DNA of 20,826 nt, from IMG/VR virus record IMGVR_UViG_3300042446_001816, positions 1 through 20,826 of that record. One strand, written 5' to 3'. Below the pieces are notes generated by a model that worked only from the letters and a program-made list of their open reading frames with translations, was not told the origin of the DNA and did not search any database. This document shows, piece by piece, positions 4,384 to 16,025 of the stretch. This DNA is from a virus. How positions within the stretch are numbered: position 1 is the first letter of the stretch; each line of letters begins with the position of its first letter. Made by a program: the position numbers and the translations under genes.

Positions 4384-4839
4384 ATGGCAGACAAGGACAA
4401 GGTTGTAGGCAAAGCCCTATACCTAGAACTTCGCACTGGTGCTCAAACATACCAGATGCTGCTTACACCAGATGGGATCTCTTCCAATGGTCGCGCAGTA
4501 CCAGCAACAATGTACCGCCGACAGATTTCATCAGTGAAACCTCGACGCGCATGGAAGACTTATTCTCTTCCTGCACTACCACTTAACGCCTTCGGAACAT
4601 ACGAAATGGCTGACAAGGAAAAGGCGCTACAAAGTGCTGACTCACGAATTGGCTACATGGCAACTACATTCTCACAACTCAAGTCTTATGGATACACGCT
4701 TTACAAGCAACCTCTTCTCATTGAGGTATCGCAAGAAGATCTTGAGTCAATTCGTCTATCAAAGACTCCTTACAAGATTCTTGGACGTATCACCAGAGTG
4801 CGCCGCACTCTTGGTTTCGGCGAATTCATCATTTCCTAA
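4384..4839 (+). CDS. Hypothetical protein next to the MoxR gene, 151 aa
   Basis: The 151-residue product (MADKDKVVGKALYLELRTGAQTYQMLL...) is mixed alpha/beta and basic, with RxQISSVKPRRAWKTYSLPALPL in the middle and a C-terminal LGRITRVRRTLGFGEF strand pair. No catalytic motif or membrane segment is visible. It shares the promoter at 4339 with the MoxR-like ATPase 31 nt downstream, which has its own SD (AACGACAAAGGA) but no separate -10. A role with the ATPase/VWA system is possible from position only. Confidence 0.75.
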   Translation: MADKDKVVGKALYLELRTGAQTYQMLLTPDGISSNGRAVPATMYRRQISSVKPRRAWKTYSLPALPLNAFGTYEMADKEKALQSADSRIGYMATTFSQLKSYGYTLYKQPLLIEVSQEDLESIRLSKTPYKILGRITRVRRTLGFGEFIIS

Positions 4840-4870
4840 TACTCACACCCAAACGACAAAGGACAAGCAA

Positions 4871-5872
4871 ATGACTGCAACAATTGAAACAATGAAGGAG
4901 ACTTTCACAGCTCTTTCACCAGATATTGATTTATCTTCTACACTGGTAGATGCTCTTATCCAGAGCATTCACCCAGAGACTAGTTCAGCTCTAGACTCAC
5001 AGGTTCTCGCTCAGGGTAAAGTAAACGTACGACCAACCCCTAAAGCAAAGGTTATTCCTGTGGTATCAGCAGATGCACTCGTAGGCGACAACGTCTACAC
5101 TCGTCCTAATGGCGAGCAGTACCATGCACGCAAGTGGGGTGAGCACGATGACGTGCTAGTACTTCGCAAGGCACGTATGGATCAACAGTTTATTCTTCTC
5201 TACGGAGCTCCAGGTTGTGGTAAGACTGCACTTGTAGAAGCTGCATTTGAAAAGCTCTACACAATCATGGGAACAGGCGATACAGAACTTGCTGACTTCA
5301 TTGGTGGCTACGTACAAACTCCAACAGGAGGATTCGTCTGGGAAGATGGTCCACTTGTAAAAGCTGCAGAGCAAGGTGTACCTCTACTAATCGATGAGGT
5401 TGGTCTTATTGATCCTAAGGTTCTTTCAGGAGTCTATGGACTTATGGATGGACGTAAGGAACTAACAATTACTGCAAACCCAGAGCGCGGAACTATTAAG
5501 GCGAAGGATGGATTCTATGTCATCGCTGCAACTAATCCAAATGCACCTGGAGTTCGCTTATCTGAAGCGTTACTATCTCGCTTCATCGTTCAAACAGAGA
5601 TGACTACAGACTGGTCACTTGCTAAAAAGCTTGGCGCATCCACACAGATCGTTACAGTTGCACAAAACATCAATCGTCGCCAGGCTTCTGGCGAGTGTGG
5701 TTGGTGCCCACAGATGCGTGAACTTCTAGCGTTCCGCGACATCTCTAAATCGTTCGGCACAAAGTTCGCTATCGCGAACTTAATCGCTTGCGCTCCAGAG
5801 CTCGACCGCCCCGTCGTTGCGGACGTTCTCACAAGAGTGTATGGCGAAGAGTGCCGACCAGCCAAGATCTAA
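4871..5872 (+). CDS. MoxR-like AAA+ ATPase, 333 aa
   Basis: Walker A is GAPGCGKTA at residues 112-120, Walker B LLIDEVG at about 172-178, and a sensor-1 AATNPNAPG follows. The insert around GFVWEDGPLVKAAEQG is typical of the MoxR/AAA_5 group. Members of that group remodel proteins and act with a VWA-domain partner, which is exactly the next gene. The N-terminal 95 residues (helical, then PKAKVIPVVSADALVGDNVYTRP) probably contact substrate or partner. I choose ATG 4871 because AACGACAAAGGACAAGCA precedes it; the longer frame back to 4634 only overlaps the previous gene. A terminator-like hairpin separates it from the VWA gene, which has its own promoter. Confidence 0.85.
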   Translation: MTATIETMKETFTALSPDIDLSSTLVDALIQSIHPETSSALDSQVLAQGKVNVRPTPKAKVIPVVSADALVGDNVYTRPNGEQYHARKWGEHDDVLVLRKARMDQQFILLYGAPGCGKTALVEAAFEKLYTIMGTGDTELADFIGGYVQTPTGGFVWEDGPLVKAAEQGVPLLIDEVGLIDPKVLSGVYGLMDGRKELTITANPERGTIKAKDGFYVIAATNPNAPGVRLSEALLSRFIVQTEMTTDWSLAKKLGASTQIVTVAQNINRRQASGECGWCPQMRELLAFRDISKSFGTKFAIANLIACAPELDRPVVADVLTRVYGEECRPAKI

Positions 5873-5887
5873 TTCCCCTTGGCGTAA

Positions 5888-5925
5888 GGAAGGGGACTCC
5901 AGATGGGTGTCTGGAGTTTCCTTCT
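5888..5925 (+). terminator. Long hairpin after the MoxR gene
   Basis: ACTCCAGA-tgggtg-TCTGGAGT is a perfect 8-bp stem (5896-5917). It can be extended by about eight more pairs, some G.U, between GGAAGGGG and TTCCTTCT. The following sequence is T/C-rich with no pure T-run, so it may be a partial terminator. Confidence 0.6.
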
Positions 5926-5936
5926 CCTTACTTACC

Positions 5937-5945
5937 TGATATAAT
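5937..5945 (+). promoter_or_regulatory. Extended -10 promoter TGATATAAT
   Basis: TGATATAATAGTACTA precedes the VWA gene; the SD is AATGACGGAAGGA at about 5956-5968. Confidence 0.8.
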
Positions 5946-5978
5946 AGTACTATTCAATGACGGAAGGATAGAAAGAAC

Positions 5979-7775
5979 ATGGCACACTTAAAGGTTTCCA
6001 AAACCCGTGCGGAGCAAACTCCGCCGGAATGGCTAAAGGTCGGAGCCCAACTCGGCGAGCTAGTCAACACCTGGGCAGGACGCTCAGACATCGTTGCCTA
6101 CGTTGGCCCAGGCGCTGGTCAAGACGCACCTGCTTGTTTCAACCCACCAATGGCTGAGGTTGAGGTAGACGTTGCTATTGCCTTCGGCAAGGCAGTAACT
6201 CCAGAGACGATTGGCGACATTCGCAATCGCACAACACAATTCGATTATCCACGAGCATCTGGCGCTATCTTTCACGAGGCGTTGCACGCTCGCTACTCAC
6301 GCTACGATTTACTAAAAGCTATTGAAGATCTTTCAAAGAACGAGATGATGGCGCTTACGATTCTTGAAGAGACTCGTATCGAAGCTCTCGGTGTAGAGAA
6401 CTTCCCAGCTAATCGAGTCTTCCTACGCGCTTGCGCGATGGACATCATCCTTGATGATATTCGTGAGAACTTAGAACAGAACACCACAACTCGTGCAATG
6501 GCGCAGTTGGCAGCTCTTGTCTGCGCTCGCGTAGATGCGGGTTCTCTAGATGCGGAAGATGCTCTTGACGTTCAAGGTATGGTTTCAGACTTCTTCGGCG
6601 CAACTCGCTATGCGCAACTTCGCGACGTCTGGCTTCGATTCCAAAAGTACGAAGGACACTTCAATGCTCTACCACTTTACGAGCTTGCTCGCGAATGGGA
6701 AGCACTCATCAAGGACGTTTCAGATGAGAATGGCGAGACTGAAGATGAAGCTAACATGATTACTGCTGCTATGGCAGGTATCATCTCAGACATCATCGAG
6801 TCTCTTGAGGCAGCTGCAGAAGACATTGCAATTGCAATTGGCGATGAAGCTCAAGAACAAGAGCAAAAAGAAGAGTGGAAAGAAGTTGTTGACATTCGTG
6901 GCAAAGCTGCCAAGCAGCAAAAAGACCATGAAAAGATTTCCGAGGAAGTCTTTAACAAGTCTACAGGCGAAGCAGGCAATGGCAGTTACTCACGCATCAA
7001 GGAGACTCGTGCACCATCTGGCCCAGAGCGTGCGGCAGCAGTCAAGATTGCAAACATGCTTGAGCGTGCAAAGTATCGTGAGCGCGATGAGAAGGAAGTA
7101 ACTTCAATTCTTCCTCCAGGGCGTCTACGTTCTCGTGCGATGCTTCAAGAAGCCGCGTACAAAGCTCGTGGCTCAATGATGCATGCAGAGCCATGGAAGC
7201 GTACAGTGCGCAAGCACACAGATGACCCAACACTTAACGTTGGAGTTATGGTTGACATCTCTGGTTCAATGGCAGATGCAATGCAGCCAATGGCAGTTAC
7301 CGCTTGGGCAATGTCAGAAGCCGTGCGACGCGTTCAAGGTAAGTGTGCAATGGTTTATTACGGTTCAGGCGTGTTCCCTACACTAAAGCCAGGACAGCAT
7401 CTCGCAGAAGTAAATGTGTACTCTGCTCCTGATGGAACTGAAAAGTTCGACAGAGCATTCAAGGCACTCGATGGTTCTCTAAATCTTCTCAATGGAACTG
7501 GCGCTCGTCTACTCGTAGTAGTTAGTGATGGTTGCTACACTCCAGATGAGACTGAGAAAGCTAAGAAGTGGATTCAGGAATGTGAAAAGAACGGGGTTGC
7601 AGTCTTGTGGATTCCTTTCGCTCACGCTTACCAACTTGGATATGTTCGCGAGATTGTTAAGGGGACATCAGTTGCTCTTCTACAAGATGTAACAGATCCA
7701 GCAGACGCTGCACTCCAAATCGGAAAAGCTGCGGCAGACGCTCTAACAAAGATTGGCGCACGTAACGCTGCGTAA
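5979..7775 (+). CDS. Metallopeptidase-like plus VWA-domain protein (MoxR partner), 598 aa
   Basis: The N-terminal half carries AIFHEALHARYS, an HExxH zinc motif with H99, E100 and H103, and LTILEETRIEA at about 127-137 could give the third ligand. A central acidic, Gln/Glu/Lys-rich region (about 250-330) is probably a flexible or coiled linker. The C-terminal VWA domain has a complete MIDAS, VMVDISGSMADAM, with D426, S428 and S430, then a later VVVSDGCYTPDE. This layout matches the DUF2201/CobT-type partners of MoxR ATPases, and the ATPase lies immediately upstream. The pair probably unfolds or activates a client, perhaps with proteolysis by the HExxH domain; the client is unknown. A strong terminator follows. 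Confidence 0.8.
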   Translation: MAHLKVSKTRAEQTPPEWLKVGAQLGELVNTWAGRSDIVAYVGPGAGQDAPACFNPPMAEVEVDVAIAFGKAVTPETIGDIRNRTTQFDYPRASGAIFHEALHARYSRYDLLKAIEDLSKNEMMALTILEETRIEALGVENFPANRVFLRACAMDIILDDIRENLEQNTTTRAMAQLAALVCARVDAGSLDAEDALDVQGMVSDFFGATRYAQLRDVWLRFQKYEGHFNALPLYELAREWEALIKDVSDENGETEDEANMITAAMAGIISDIIESLEAAAEDIAIAIGDEAQEQEQKEEWKEVVDIRGKAAKQQKDHEKISEEVFNKSTGEAGNGSYSRIKETRAPSGPERAAAVKIANMLERAKYRERDEKEVTSILPPGRLRSRAMLQEAAYKARGSMMHAEPWKRTVRKHTDDPTLNVGVMVDISGSMADAMQPMAVTAWAMSEAVRRVQGKCAMVYYGSGVFPTLKPGQHLAEVNVYSAPDGTEKFDRAFKALDGSLNLLNGTGARLLVVVSDGCYTPDETEKAKKWIQECEKNGVAVLWIPFAHAYQLGYVREIVKGTSVALLQDVTDPADAALQIGKAAADALTKIGARNAA

Positions 7776-10265: not shown

Positions 10266-10444
10266 TGGCGAGGAATGAGGCTGCGGGCATCTGGGAGATC
10301 CGTGATGTTCATACTGGAGAACGCATCTCTAAGTTTCGTGCCCGTAAACGTGCAGACGTTACTAGATACCTGGAGATGGCGCGGATTGGTCTAAAACGAC
10401 CAATAGAAGATTTCGAGGCAGTATTTATTACCGAATGGGAATAA
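10265..10444 (+). CDS. Basic hypothetical protein, 59 aa
   Basis: It starts in TAATG overlap with the zinc miniprotein. The product (MARNEAAGIWEIRDVHTGERI...) begins with a beta hairpin (IWEIRDVHTGERISKF), then a basic helix (RARKRADVTRYLEMARIG) and ends in FEAVFITEWE. The positive middle could contact nucleic acid. It is the last gene of the 9549 unit; the ncRNA promoter begins three bases after its stop. Family not recognised. Confidence 0.7.
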   Translation: MARNEAAGIWEIRDVHTGERISKFRARKRADVTRYLEMARIGLKRPIEDFEAVFITEWE

Positions 10445-10447
10445 ACC

Positions 10448-10456
10448 TGTTATAAT
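10448..10456 (+). promoter_or_regulatory. Extended -10 promoter of the non-coding RNA
   Basis: TGTTATAATAGGACTAAC matches the gene promoters, but no SD or reading frame follows. +1 should be near 10463. Confidence 0.75.
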
Positions 10457-10462
10457 AGGACT

Positions 10463-10753
10463 AACAACTTAATACTTAGGTTTGGACTTACTGAATCTTG
10501 GAGCGTAAGGGTATCCCATGGGGACACTACTCCCGATAAGCTGACACGGCACCGCGGGTAGGGGTAGCTTGGTTCAGGACAAAGACCGGAACAAAACTAA
10601 CTTAGGAAAGTTCGGAGTAAAACCTGATAGCAAGATCTACGTCAGGTACTGCGCAAAAAGTGAAGCGCGACTCAAAGCCTTCGTGCGTGAAAGTCTGTCC
10701 ACATGTTTGAGGCTGGTCGTATCCCGGAATGGTGCGACCAGTCTCATTCTTTT
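10463..10753 (+). ncRNA. Candidate structured phage small RNA, about 290 nt, unknown family
   Basis: The stretch lies between a TGnTATAAT promoter and a strong terminator and has no SD-led frame; the one long frame (TTG 10569 to 10787) runs through the terminator. It can fold into successive hairpins: GTATCCC-atg-GGGACAC (one mismatch), AAGCT with AGCTT, GTTCAGG with CCGGAAC (one mismatch), AACTT-agga-AAGTT, ACCTGATAG with CTA-cg-TCAGGT, and TGCGC with GCGCG. GGACTT near 10483 could close the fold with AAGTC near 10690. It matches no class I know; RNase P, tmRNA, 6S and group I intron signatures are lacking. The promoter, terminator and structure are seen; function is unknown. Confidence 0.6.
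10709..10753 (+). terminator. Rho-independent terminator of the non-coding RNA
   Basis: GAGGCTGGTCG (10709-10719) pairs with CGACCAGTCTC (10735-10745), 11 pairs with one G.U, followed by ATTCTTTT. Confidence 0.85.
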
Positions 10754-10755
10754 AT

Positions 10756-10788
10756 GTGTTGTACTTTGTAATAGATACATGTTATAAT
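10756..10788 (+). repeat. 33-bp promoter-bearing repeat, copy 2
   Basis: It matches 9123-9155 at 32 of 33 bases. Its last nine bases are the extended -10 TGTTATAAT. The sequence following continues identically (25 nt in all) with the promoter region at 11404-11428. Confidence 0.8.
10780..10788 (+). promoter_or_regulatory. Extended -10 promoter TGTTATAAT
   Basis: It drives the structured leader at 10797-10875 and the zinc protein at 10910. It lies 27 nt past the terminator of the non-coding RNA. Confidence 0.8.
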
Positions 10789-10793
10789 TAAAC

Positions 10794-10875
10794 CATAACG
10801 ATGAAGGGCCAGCCGCTGGTCACCTGAACGACTTCAACTTGCAAGGGTCGGAAACAATACGGCGCCTTCATCGTT
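10794..10875 (+). promoter_or_regulatory. Multi-branch structured 5' leader RNA
   Basis: AACGATGAAGG (10797-10807) pairs perfectly with CCTTCATCGTT (10865-10875). Inside are GCCAG-ccg-CTGGT (10809-10820) and CGAC (10829-10832) with GTCG (10847-10850), making a three-way or four-way junction, with GGAAACAATACGGCG unpaired before the closing helix. The closing helix buries a GATGAAGG that resembles the usual SD; the real SD, AACGACGGAAGGA, lies downstream and is free. Confidence 0.6.
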
Positions 10876-10909
10876 CTAAAATTAAAGACAAACGACGGAA
10901 GGATACAAA

Positions 10910-11152
10910 ATGTCAAGCAACTACCCACCAGGAGTCTCCGGGTTTGAACCACAGATTGCGGGCTCACTCGAGAGTGAGAGCATACAGGAACTCAACTGCG
11001 GCAATGACGAGTGTGACGCATGCTATGAGGTTCCAACAATTGAAGACTGGGCGCATGACACCGTAGTATGGTTTGCAGAGTGGGTGTGCATCAAATGTGG
11101 TGAGGAAAACTCCCGCGAAGGTTGGTACAACTCGCAACACACCAGTCTATAA
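10910..11152 (+). CDS. Zinc-finger-like protein, 80 aa
   Basis: The SD AACGACGGAAGGATAC fixes the ATG. The acidic product (MSSNYPPGVSGFEPQIAGSL...) has CGNDECDAC at about residues 30-38 and CIKC at about 59-62, fitting a C4 zinc site. The sequence between (VVWFAEWVCIKCGEEN) is aromatic and strand-like, as in zinc ribbons. It is expressed behind the structured leader at 10794-10875, which makes it the most likely target of any regulation there. Function unknown. Confidence 0.75.
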   Translation: MSSNYPPGVSGFEPQIAGSLESESIQELNCGNDECDACYEVPTIEDWAHDTVVWFAEWVCIKCGEENSREGWYNSQHTSL

Positions 11153-11926: not shown

Positions 11927-12129
11927 TGCTGGAAGAATACTGCGGCACGTGCGGTAGCCTTGAGTCTAACCACCAAGCAAACCAATCTGAGAGCTTGCGA
12001 TTTGTGTCTCTTGCTCAAGAAGTTATAGCGTCACTTCCCGATGATGAGTACTCAGCTATACTCGAACAAATTTTGTACGACTGGCGAACACACACGCTCC
12101 CAGCTTGCGACCCACTTTCAATAGATTAG
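11926..12129 (+). CDS. Small acidic protein with CGTCG motif, 67 aa
   Basis: It starts by TAATG overlap with the preceding gene. The product (MLEEYCGTCGSLESNHQANQ...) has CGTC at residues 6-9 and one distant Cys near the C-terminus, so a single complete zinc site is unlikely unless H16 contributes. The rest is helical (LRFVSLAQEVIASLPDDEYSA). There is no membrane segment. Function unknown; it lies 8 nt upstream of the HTH protein and is probably co-translated with it. Confidence 0.7.
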   Translation: MLEEYCGTCGSLESNHQANQSESLRFVSLAQEVIASLPDDEYSAILEQILYDWRTHTLPACDPLSID

Positions 12130-12137
12130 GAACACAA

Positions 12138-12737
12138 ATGGAAAAACGACCAAGAATTAAAAAGCAGATAGCAGTTACGCAACATCAAACCTTGCCGTTC
12201 ATTGCTACCGCTGCTGTCAACATTGTTGATGATCTGCCTACTCGTGCAGCTTACGTAAAAGCTCTTCGCATGAAGGGTTGGACTCTTCAGGCAATCGCTG
12301 GCGCATTAGGAGTTACACGCGAGCGTATTCGTCAAATCGAAGCTAAGGCTTCACCATCTCTTCTTGTTTACGTGCTGTCTAACCCTGGCAACTTCCCAGT
12401 CCCAGAGTTAGAGACAAAGGAAGTAGAGGTACCAGACACTACACCTGTAGTCCCAAGTGAAGTCACATTAAAACGATTACTAGAACTTAAACCATTCGCG
12501 CAGCAAGTCCGCTGGGACCAACCAGAGCATCGTGCAGCTGGAGAGGAATATACAGCTTTATTATGGCACGCTCATTCGGTTGAAGGTGTAACCCTCTACC
12601 GATTAGCTAAGTGCATCGGTGTTACCCATGGAGCTATTCGATTCCGTCTAGCTCGCTACGGGTATATTCAGCCTGTAACTGCAAAGAGTAAAGCCTATAC
12701 TCCAATCAAGGAGAAGAACAGAGCGGTTTTACTATGA
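12138..12737 (+). CDS. Regulator with a sigma-region-4.2-like helix-turn-helix, 199 aa
   Basis: Residues about 47-72 read GWTLQAIAGALGVTRERIRQ followed by IEAKA. This is very close to the -35-binding helix-turn-helix of sigma-70 family factors (GVTRERIRQIEAKA). No region 2 or 3 is present, so it is not a full sigma factor. A Val/Pro/Glu-rich linker (about 90-112) leads to a second HTH-like segment, GVTLYRLAKCIGVTHGAIRFRLARYGY (about 155-181, in outline). Two DNA-binding units suggest a regulator that bridges sites or docks on RNA polymerase. I start at ATG 12138, where GATTAGGAACACAAA gives a weak SD. Its TGA overlaps the next ATG. Confidence 0.75.
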   Translation: MEKRPRIKKQIAVTQHQTLPFIATAAVNIVDDLPTRAAYVKALRMKGWTLQAIAGALGVTRERIRQIEAKASPSLLVYVLSNPGNFPVPELETKEVEVPDTTPVVPSEVTLKRLLELKPFAQQVRWDQPEHRAAGEEYTALLWHAHSVEGVTLYRLAKCIGVTHGAIRFRLARYGYIQPVTAKSKAYTPIKEKNRAVLL

Positions 12738-13954: not shown

Positions 13955-14521
13955 ATGACTACACTTGTGGCTATCCAAGGTGATGGCTGGTCTGTCATCG
14001 GTTGTGATTCGCGTTCGTCAGACGAAAGCGGTCGCTACTTAGAAATGGCTACTCATAAAGTTGTAGAGAACAATGGTATTCTCATTGCTGGTTCCGGTGC
14101 AGGACGCGGCTCAAACATACTTCAATTTGGTTGGAGAGCTCCTAAGCCTAAACCTGGACAAGACCTTGACGTATTCATGACGAAAACATTTATTCCGTCT
14201 ATGCGTAAGGTTTTTATCGAGTCCGGATACGACATGAAGGCTGATGGTGAAGCTGCGGCTCACGATTCAGAGTTCATTGTTTCAATACACGGAGTTCTTT
14301 ACCCAATTTACGAAGATTACTCCTGGGACAGAGAAGAACGAAACGTTTATCATTCAGGTAGCGGTTCGGATCTAGCTCTCGGCGTTCTTGAAGCTCTTAA
14401 CTATCAAAAGTGTAAGAGCGCAAAGGAAGCTGAGAAGATTGTTTATCGTGCAGTAGAAATTGCTATCAAGCATGACATCTACTCTGGCGGTAACATTCAC
14501 ACGTTTATACAAGAAGAGTAA
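13955..14521 (+). CDS. Proteasome beta/HslV-like Ntn-hydrolase, 188 aa
   Basis: After removal of Met1 the chain begins TTLVAIQGDGWSVIGCDSR, which aligns without gaps to HslV (TTIVSV...): catalytic Thr at position 1 and Asp at 17. Lys at 34 (ATHKVV) can serve as the active-site Lys (33 in HslV). GSGAGRGS and SGSGSDLALGVLEAL match the glycine loops and long helix of the fold. No propeptide is present, as in HslV. No ATPase partner of the HslU or Mpa type is next to it; the MoxR-like ATPase lies 8 kb upstream. It may be a self-compartmentalised phage protease. The SD GGAGAAGGA is canonical. Confidence 0.8.
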   Translation: MTTLVAIQGDGWSVIGCDSRSSDESGRYLEMATHKVVENNGILIAGSGAGRGSNILQFGWRAPKPKPGQDLDVFMTKTFIPSMRKVFIESGYDMKADGEAAAHDSEFIVSIHGVLYPIYEDYSWDREERNVYHSGSGSDLALGVLEALNYQKCKSAKEAEKIVYRAVEIAIKHDIYSGGNIHTFIQEE

Positions 14522-14552: not shown

Positions 14553-14593
14553 AGTATTATTAAATGACAAATGACAAAGAGACGAGAAACAAC

Positions 14594-15118
14594 ATGGCAA
14601 AGATAGTTAACATCGAAACAGGCTACGCACCAGCTCATGAAATCGCTGACTGGGACTTCCCACTGTGGAGTGAGATCTTGCCTAACCTATGGGTTGGTGG
14701 TACAGATGACGATGACACAATCGAAGACTCTGCAAACATTCACACAAGCCGTAACATCACCAAGGATGAGTTCGATGCGGTTGTCACGCTTTACGCATGG
14801 GCGAATCCAGTTGACTGGATGGTTGAGGAACTACGTTTCGGATTCTACGATTCTGATATCTCTCACATTGATATGAAAGCTTTGCATCGCGCTGCTTCAT
14901 ACGCGGTTGACCAAGTTCAAAACGGCAATAAGGTTTTAATTCGTTGCCAGGCCGGGTTAAATCGTTCTGGTCTGACTGCTGCCTTGGCTCTAATCAAAAT
15001 GGGATACAAGCCAGAAGATGCAATTAACCTTCTACGTCAAAAGCGTAGTCGCTACGTTTTGATTAACAAAGAGTTCGAAGAATTTCTACTTGCGCTAGTA
15101 GATGATAACGATGAGTAA
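14594..15118 (+). CDS. Dual-specificity-type protein phosphatase, 174 aa
   Basis: The P-loop is VLIRCQAGLNRSG: nucleophile C118 and R124 in the Cx5R signature, with Arg in place of the usual His before the Cys. An acidic loop YDSDIS at about 85-90 supplies the general acid, and LPNLWVGGTDDDD near residue 30 matches the family's N-terminal NLWVGG strand. It should remove phosphate from proteins or from another phosphoester. I choose ATG 14594, as 14564 lies at most 12 nt from the -10. Its last codons overlap the next gene. Between the proteasome-like and deacetylase-like genes it looks like part of one functional set. Confidence 0.85.
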   Translation: MAKIVNIETGYAPAHEIADWDFPLWSEILPNLWVGGTDDDDTIEDSANIHTSRNITKDEFDAVVTLYAWANPVDWMVEELRFGFYDSDISHIDMKALHRAASYAVDQVQNGNKVLIRCQAGLNRSGLTAALALIKMGYKPEDAINLLRQKRSRYVLINKEFEEFLLALVDDNDE

Positions 15119-16025
15119 ACTTCATATTGCTTACGATGACATCTACCTAGATTGGCAGCTAGGAGCTGGCGATGGTAGCCATCCGACAAATCCAATGCGA
15201 GCTAAGCTTGCGGTAGAGCTTCTTGAAAAACTAGATCCAGTAATGGTAGATCCAGCTGCATCTGAATCTGATAGAGATCTGCTAAATCATGTTCACAGCG
15301 ATGAGTACATTTCTAAGGTTCTTGACCAAGGTCATTGCGGTGAATGGTACCCAGACCAGCAGCATTTAGGTGACGTAGCTCTCGAAATGGCTGCAGGGAC
15401 TATTCGTCTATACGAAAAGATTCTTAGCGGCGAAGCAAAGGTTGCGTTTAATCCGCAGGGAGCTAAGCACCACGCGCAGTACGACCACTCGTCTGGTTTT
15501 TGTGTATTCAATGACATGGCGTTAGTCGCTAAGCTATTTTCGGCTGCTGGGCTTAAGCCTATGTACATCGACTGGGATGCGCATCATGGCGATGGCGTAG
15601 AAAACATCCTGCGGGCATACCCAAATATAGTTACGGCAAGTATTCACGAGGATGGAATCTTCCCAGGCACTGGTCTTGCAAGCGAGCCAGAAAATGGAGC
15701 TTACAATTGGCCGTTGAGTAGCGAAGCTGGAGACGTAGACTTCTTAGATGCTATGAAGGAGATAGAAATCCTAGCTGATGAGTTTCAGCCAGATGTAGTC
15801 CTTCTGGCTACCGGAGCTGATGCACATCATTCAGATCCTTTATCTTCGTTAACGTTTGATTATCCTGGATACAGAGCAGCAGCTCGTATCGTTGCGGACA
15901 TCGCTAACAAGCATGCAAAGGGGCGAGTACTTATTGGAGGAGCCGGAGGCTATCAACCTCTTACCCATACTCCTAAAGTCTGGGCAACTGTTGTATCTGA
16001 GATTTACAACCACATCACCGTATAA
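15111..16025 (+). CDS. Histone-deacetylase-like amidohydrolase, 304 aa
   Basis: Motifs run in the family order: GAKHHAQYDHSSGFCVFNDMA (His pair and FND, about 119-139), YIDWDAHHGDGVE with zinc ligands D and H (about 155-165), LLATGADAHHSDPLSSL with the third zinc ligand Asp, and IGGAGGYQ with the catalytic Tyr. All catalytic positions of class I/II deacetylases and acetylpolyamine amidohydrolases are present. In phages the substrate could be acetyl-lysine on a host protein, acetylpolyamine or another acyl amide; sequence cannot tell. ATG 15111 (MSKLHIAYDD) is preferred over ATG 15102 and overlaps the phosphatase stop by 8 nt. TerL follows from its own leaderless promoter. Confidence 0.85.
   Translation: MSKLHIAYDDIYLDWQLGAGDGSHPTNPMRAKLAVELLEKLDPVMVDPAASESDRDLLNHVHSDEYISKVLDQGHCGEWYPDQQHLGDVALEMAAGTIRLYEKILSGEAKVAFNPQGAKHHAQYDHSSGFCVFNDMALVAKLFSAAGLKPMYIDWDAHHGDGVENILRAYPNIVTASIHEDGIFPGTGLASEPENGAYNWPLSSEAGDVDFLDAMKEIEILADEFQPDVVLLATGADAHHSDPLSSLTFDYPGYRAAARIVADIANKHAKGRVLIGGAGGYQPLTHTPKVWATVVSEIYNHITV

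Follow-up and report, generated by a model that had tools for sequence, protein, structure and literature searches.

To our knowledge, few structured phage RNAs combine strong covariation with membership in no known family, and GOLLD and ROOL, the best known of them, are still without a function. In bacteria, 6S RNA, RNase P RNA and tmRNA are stand-alone RNAs with a terminal closing stem. GOLLD is a non-coding, highly structured phage RNA of unknown function in which a conserved part is joined to a less conserved one; it is often longer than 800 nt and often located near tRNA islands (PMC12286853). ROOL is a structured RNA of phages or prophages with predicted pseudoknots, for which no partner has been identified (PMC12286853). 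Some large bacterial RNAs bind ribosomes or ribosomal proteins, as exemplified by the recovery of GOLLD in pull-downs and by the proposed link between OLE and RpsU (PMC12286853).

The locus described here lies in a 20.8-kb virus fragment, hereafter the window (the whole stretch of 20,826 nucleotides that was analysed), and we are highly confident that it is an RNA gene with the fold given below. A structured phage RNA of about 290 nt had been proposed at this place, and this holds: the stems covary beyond what phylogeny explains, as in a stand-alone structured non-coding RNA, and the promoter and terminator are kept at homologous loci.

Boundaries of the RNA Gene

10448-10753, plus strand: RNA gene, consisting of a promoter, a structure of about 240 nt closed by a stem between its 5' and 3' sides, and a 16-bp terminator, all contiguous
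10448-10456, plus strand: extended -10 promoter TGTTATAAT, with the expected transcription start at about 10463
10708-10753, plus strand: intrinsic terminator, a 16-bp stem (10708-10746) followed by the U-rich tail TTCTTTT
2712, 3650, 9147, 9510, 10448, 10780, 11406, 13510, 14544 and 17644: examples of extended -10 sites (motif matches)

Both boundaries named in the original prediction, an extended -10 promoter of the RNA's own at 10448-10456 and a strong terminator at 10709-10753, were found in place. The host RNA polymerase would thus be expected to start transcription at this promoter and to continue for about 290 nt, as far as the intrinsic terminator. Extended -10 matches with at most one mismatch occur 16 times in the window, 15 of them on the plus strand (3.95 expected; maximum of 12 in 100 shuffles), and sites of the form TG[TA]TATAAT stand ahead of many genes, at four times expectation and nearly all on the plus strand, which suggests that the phage gives single genes promoters of their own. 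Since TGTTATAAT is one of this set, it represents the phage's ordinary gene promoter and is not special to the RNA at 10448-10753. Among the related loci of the window's type (group A, see below), TG[AT]TATAAT was found 43-61 nt upstream of the core hairpin at 15 of the 17 checked and also at L038, which is the same contig as L007; L082 is the exception, in which a second RNA stands upstream instead. In the group A loci read, the closing stem is likewise followed by a terminator-like hairpin.

The region does not appear to encode a protein. As had been noticed, the sole long frame (10569-10787, TTG start) reads through the terminator, and the presumed absence of a coding frame is borne out by the homologues, throughout which no frame stays open and no reading frame is conserved.

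Family Members and Their Distribution

The terminase encoded in the window shares 76% identity with its counterpart in the Actinomycetia phage DSL-LC01, from Dishui Lake, for which Actinomycetia are the predicted hosts (PMC10611076). Comparison of two flanking proteins with IMG/VR led to many relatives, and BLASTN located the RNA in the same neighbourhood of the nearer ones, where most of it aligns at 73-92% identity. A pattern scan of IMG/VR with the core hairpin returned 37 contig stretches, corresponding to 25 distinct sequences, to which additional scans contributed L119, L120, L122 and L123, bringing the number of distinct sequences to 29, drawn from about 41 contigs of phages. These fall into two groups, A (the window type, with subgroups A1-A4) and B (ten sequences). 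According to the model used, eight of ten long related records carry one copy of the RNA and the other two carry none; therefore, not all of these phages need it.

Searches of 84,980 cellular genomes, of 50,697 named phages and of 72,556 plasmids did not recover the RNA at the sensitivity used. In the cellular species genomes the pattern matched twice, both times in sequence that was read as coding and that lacks the flanking stems, and DNA searches of the named phages and plasmids gave chance-level matches or none. Two other sets of candidates were also discarded, namely L121, the sole new match of a looser core pattern, which looks coding, and eight loci beyond the known members that were retrieved with domain II alone (TAGCANNATCNAC...TGCGCAAA) and were read as coding-looking chance matches.

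Comparative Structure of the RNA

10483-10487, plus strand: P1 5' strand UGGAC (closing stem), pairing with 10697-10701; 100% of cells paired
10491-10497, plus strand: P2 5' strand CUGAAUC, pairing with 10571-10577
10502-10542, plus strand: P3, AGC (10502-10504) with GCU (10540-10542), around the core hairpin
10509-10534, plus strand: core hairpin GGGUAUCCCAUGGGGACACUACUCCC with an asymmetric internal loop, near-invariant in the 29 distinct sequences
10571-10577, plus strand: P2 3' strand GGUUCAG, partner of 10491-10497
10583-10586, plus strand: P4 5' strand AGAC, pairing with 10693-10696
10601-10605, plus strand: P5 5' strand, a weak helix with 10679-10683; 72.7% of cells paired, the least certain helix
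10615-10618, plus strand: P6 5' strand GAGU, with ACUC at 10670-10673; 100% paired, GAUU/AAUC in relatives
10622-10647, plus strand: P7 hairpin ACCUGAU...GUCAGGU with the conserved loop UAGCANNAUCNAC; several compensatory changes
10650-10669, plus strand: P8 hairpin UGCGC...GCGCG, from the comparative structure
10693-10701, plus strand: P4 3' strand GUCU and P1 3' strand GUCCA, adjacent, from the comparative structure

The folding energy of 10463-10753 (-93.1 kcal/mol, z = -2.22, with 5 of 200 shuffles equally good) is suggestive only, and the terminator supplies part of it. Single-sequence folds were mutually inconsistent, so that the comparative structure alone was relied upon. In alignment A1, which comprises 11 close homologues, distinct in sequence and taken from uncultured phages, this structure is supported by 12 tree-independent compensatory double changes, counted on the tree, that keep pairing. 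When these columns were re-paired at random, the mean was 0.35 and the maximum 5, with none of 2000 trials reaching 12; data simulated on the tree (a simplified simulation of our own, not R-scape) gave a mean of 0.64 and a maximum of 5, with none of 500 reaching 12. The structure was drawn by hand with the data in view, a circumstance that a refolding control was meant to offset: the real alignment gave 14 double changes, against a mean of 1.07 and a maximum of 5 for the best structures of null alignments. Additionally, 93.6% of the A1 cells are paired, a value that falls to 26-41% when the 3' strands are slid by 1-3 columns. Thus, the strong evidence for the predicted structured RNA is comparative, with the anticipated compensatory changes in the stems across related phages lying far above all nulls.

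The comparative structure also corrects the original picture of the hairpins, which rightly took the region to be structured and wrongly to contain at least six of them in a row. P1 closes the whole; beneath it, P2 encloses P3 and the core hairpin (domain I), and P4, P5 and P6 enclose the hairpins P7 and P8 (domain II), after which comes the terminator. P1 is written in other letters in other groups (UUGGAACA/UGUUCCAA and GUUGGGCAGAGGC/GCCUCUGUCCAAC), and P2 reads, depending on the subgroup, CUGAAUC/GGUUCAG, CUAAGUC/GACUUAG, CUAGACC/GGUCUAG, UCCAGC/GCUGGA or GAGUGG/CCACUC. P4, which reads GAGACAG/CUGUCUC in L007, has only 79.5% of its cells paired because the mechanical alignment is off by one base at this helix. 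When the best stems flanking the core were searched for, P1 and P2 emerged in the majority of members of group A as well as group B; the expected P2 was not the best stem in L048, L050, L082, L088, L102 and the A3 pair L011/L106, and P2 is ambiguous in A3.

The core hairpin, whose 26-nt consensus is GGGUAUCCCAUGGGGAMAYUAMUCCC, is common to the more distant phages, where it lies inside the same nested stems. Its inner stem is UCYC/GRGA or CCAC/GUGG, and its outer stem GGG/CCC becomes AGG/CCU in L119. The AUG in its loop might start a short leader peptide, given that AAGGG precedes it and MG(K/T)L(L/I)P can be read in many members. However, codon positions 1 and 2 change while third positions stay fixed, one base is missing in subgroups A3 and A4, GUG occurs in two lineages, and the changes track pairing and not coding. 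With the codon-position pattern wrong in this way, the start codon was rejected and a leader peptide is very improbable.

Unpaired segments were considered as well, since the RNA, single-copy and stand-alone, could act as an antisense or sponge RNA by pairing with host or phage messages. Candidate segments are the conserved P7 loop UAGCANNAUCNAC, found again in L048, L050 and L122, and a GGAAA stretch after P2 in A1 and A2. Nevertheless, conservation is strongest in a hairpin that is paired, and a seed carrier would not need so elaborate a closed fold, which makes this reading unlikely.

Group B and the Search for Known Families

In group B, P1, P2 and P3 follow in the same order as in group A with different letters, and a different second half then forms an H-type pseudoknot, in which CACAC/GUGUG is replaced by GCGUUG/CAACGC in L095, L100 and L120, together with CCUCGG/CCGAGG. 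The group B structure has 96.3% of its cells paired and shows 11 double changes vs null means of 0.41-0.55, and its refolding control gave 15 vs 1.04 in nulls. In group B the model R1 finds no more than the core hairpin, and A and B are treated as one class because of this core and the common order of P1, P2 and P3. The comparison thus shows a domain I, P2 enclosing P3 and the near-invariant hairpin, that is kept, and a domain II (P4-P8 in the window) that varies by phage group. Just upstream of P1, group B carries another hairpin whose letters vary with pairing kept (GCCUGUAUAGA...UCUAUGCAGGC).

Neither group matches a described family. Covariance-model searches of Rfam 15 gave no match for the window or for nine loci at the gathering score, and none even at E<=10 for 10400-10920 or for the group B members L081, L095 and L090, in keeping with the family having been called unknown. 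Signatures of RNase P, tmRNA, 6S RNA and group I introns had been reported absent, which agrees with this result and with the lack of tRNA and tmRNA in the window. A multi-helix fold and, in group B, a covarying pseudoknot would also suit a ribozyme or an intron remnant, for instance a group I-like or self-cleaving one, and the group B strand CAGAGACUAAAUG presumably resembles a group I P7 strand. A group I intron was nonetheless rejected for group B, as RF00028 was not matched and the required GACU/AGUC pairing is broken in two members, L102 and L119; moreover, neither A nor B matches Rfam at E<=10, the RNA has its own promoter and terminator, and it splits no coding sequence. A ribozyme or intron remnant is therefore quite improbable.

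At group B loci a gene begins a short distance after the RNA and no terminator is apparent, and there the RNA may be co-transcribed or cis-acting. This placement directly upstream of a gene is what a cis-acting leader or riboswitch controlling that gene would lead one to expect. In group A, however, the RNA is followed by a terminator outside P1, whose stem does not overlap that of P1, and then by a separate promoter, present downstream at all 17 loci checked, so that the next gene has its own. In addition, the first downstream gene encodes about ten different proteins among the A loci while the RNA persists. That this gene differs between phages argues against a riboswitch for one gene and for action in trans rather than in cis, and makes the leader reading improbable.

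A Second RNA and Other Features of the Window

10797-10875: second structured RNA, just downstream, with its own promoter (10780-10788)

This RNA is unrelated to that at 10448-10753 and matches no Rfam family at E<=10. Its closing stem changes letters and keeps pairing, a third helix is present, and the loop of a CAG-NCG-CUG hairpin forms a pseudoknot with CGN' at 10860-10862 (paired in 10/10 sequences, with three pair types). Relatives were found in L042, L043, L047, L082, L125, L126, L133, L134 and L138; in L082 it lies directly ahead of the first RNA, in some loci just before a gene, and in L042, L043 and L047 before another terminator-like hairpin.

Several proteins of the window are also worth recording. 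These include a histone-deacetylase-family protein (15102-16022; PF00850, E 3.6e-58), a proteasome-subunit/HslV-like protease and a dual-specificity phosphatase-like protein (13955-14518 and 14564-15115), and a protein with a sigma-70 region 4-like helix-turn-helix (12129-12734; PF04545, E 4.2e-9), possibly a phage transcription regulator. At 4634-7775, an AAA_5 ATPase adjoins a 598-aa protein with the motif VDISGSM and no Pfam match; near the group B RNA of L088, an AAA-type ATPase similarly adjoins a VDRSGSM protein.

The von Willebrand-like character of the VDISGSM motif, together with an RNA size and closed stem of the right order, would fit a Y RNA of a Ro60 protein or the guide or scaffold RNA of a TnpB/IscB-type nuclease. 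Yet neither TROVE (PF05731) nor the TnpB zinc domain (PF07282) was found in ten related long records by a search that covered these two domains and whose controls worked, and the 598-aa protein itself lacks a Pfam match, so that an RNA of either type is hardly probable.

A Proposed Function in Trans

Taken together, these observations favour, as reasonably probable, the reading that the locus is a free-standing gene whose product, a structured non-coding RNA of a freshwater actinobacterial phage, acts in trans. The host polymerase would start the RNA at the extended -10 promoter that this phage commonly uses and the intrinsic terminator would end it about 290 nt later, the 5' and 3' ends would pair as P1 and hold the two domains, and the invariant hairpin would dock a conserved partner, presumed to be the ribosome or a protein of either host or phage. 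In this way the RNA would serve during infection as a ribonucleoprotein, a decoy or a scaffold. The docking idea derives from the letters of the hairpin being kept while its surroundings change, across groups with different second domains, a pattern that suggests a binding or tertiary-contact site. We give docking itself slightly less than an even chance, and a catalytic or solely structural role of the hairpin is just as possible. More tentative still is the possibility of a new functional class, that is, modular ribonucleoprotein RNAs that freshwater actinobacterial phages might use to take over host machines and in which the docking hairpin is invariant and the second domain exchangeable.

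The RNA is short, single-copy and clearly bounded, and one 26-nt hairpin, common to otherwise different RNAs, is directly usable as bait for the partner. Since the relatives are environmental phages, and the nearest named one is a lake phage with a predicted actinobacterial host, the RNA is also relevant to how phages take over hosts that have not been cultured.

Comparison with Known Structured RNAs

The terminal closing stem recalls 6S RNA, RNase P RNA and tmRNA, from which the present RNA differs in having no Rfam match at E<=10 and in its helix order, in which P2 encloses domain I only. Like GOLLD, it is phage-carried and structured and joins a conserved part to a less conserved part; unlike GOLLD, it measures about 290 nt, matches no Rfam model and has no tRNA nearby (none in 24 loci), bearing in mind that the tRNA-island setting of GOLLD and ROOL is frequent and not obligatory. 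With ROOL it shares the nature of a structured phage RNA with predicted pseudoknots, whereas its own promoter and terminator, its different core and, again, the absence of an Rfam match or nearby tRNA set it apart. The RNA thus resembles GOLLD and ROOL in kind, and not in sequence, size or setting.
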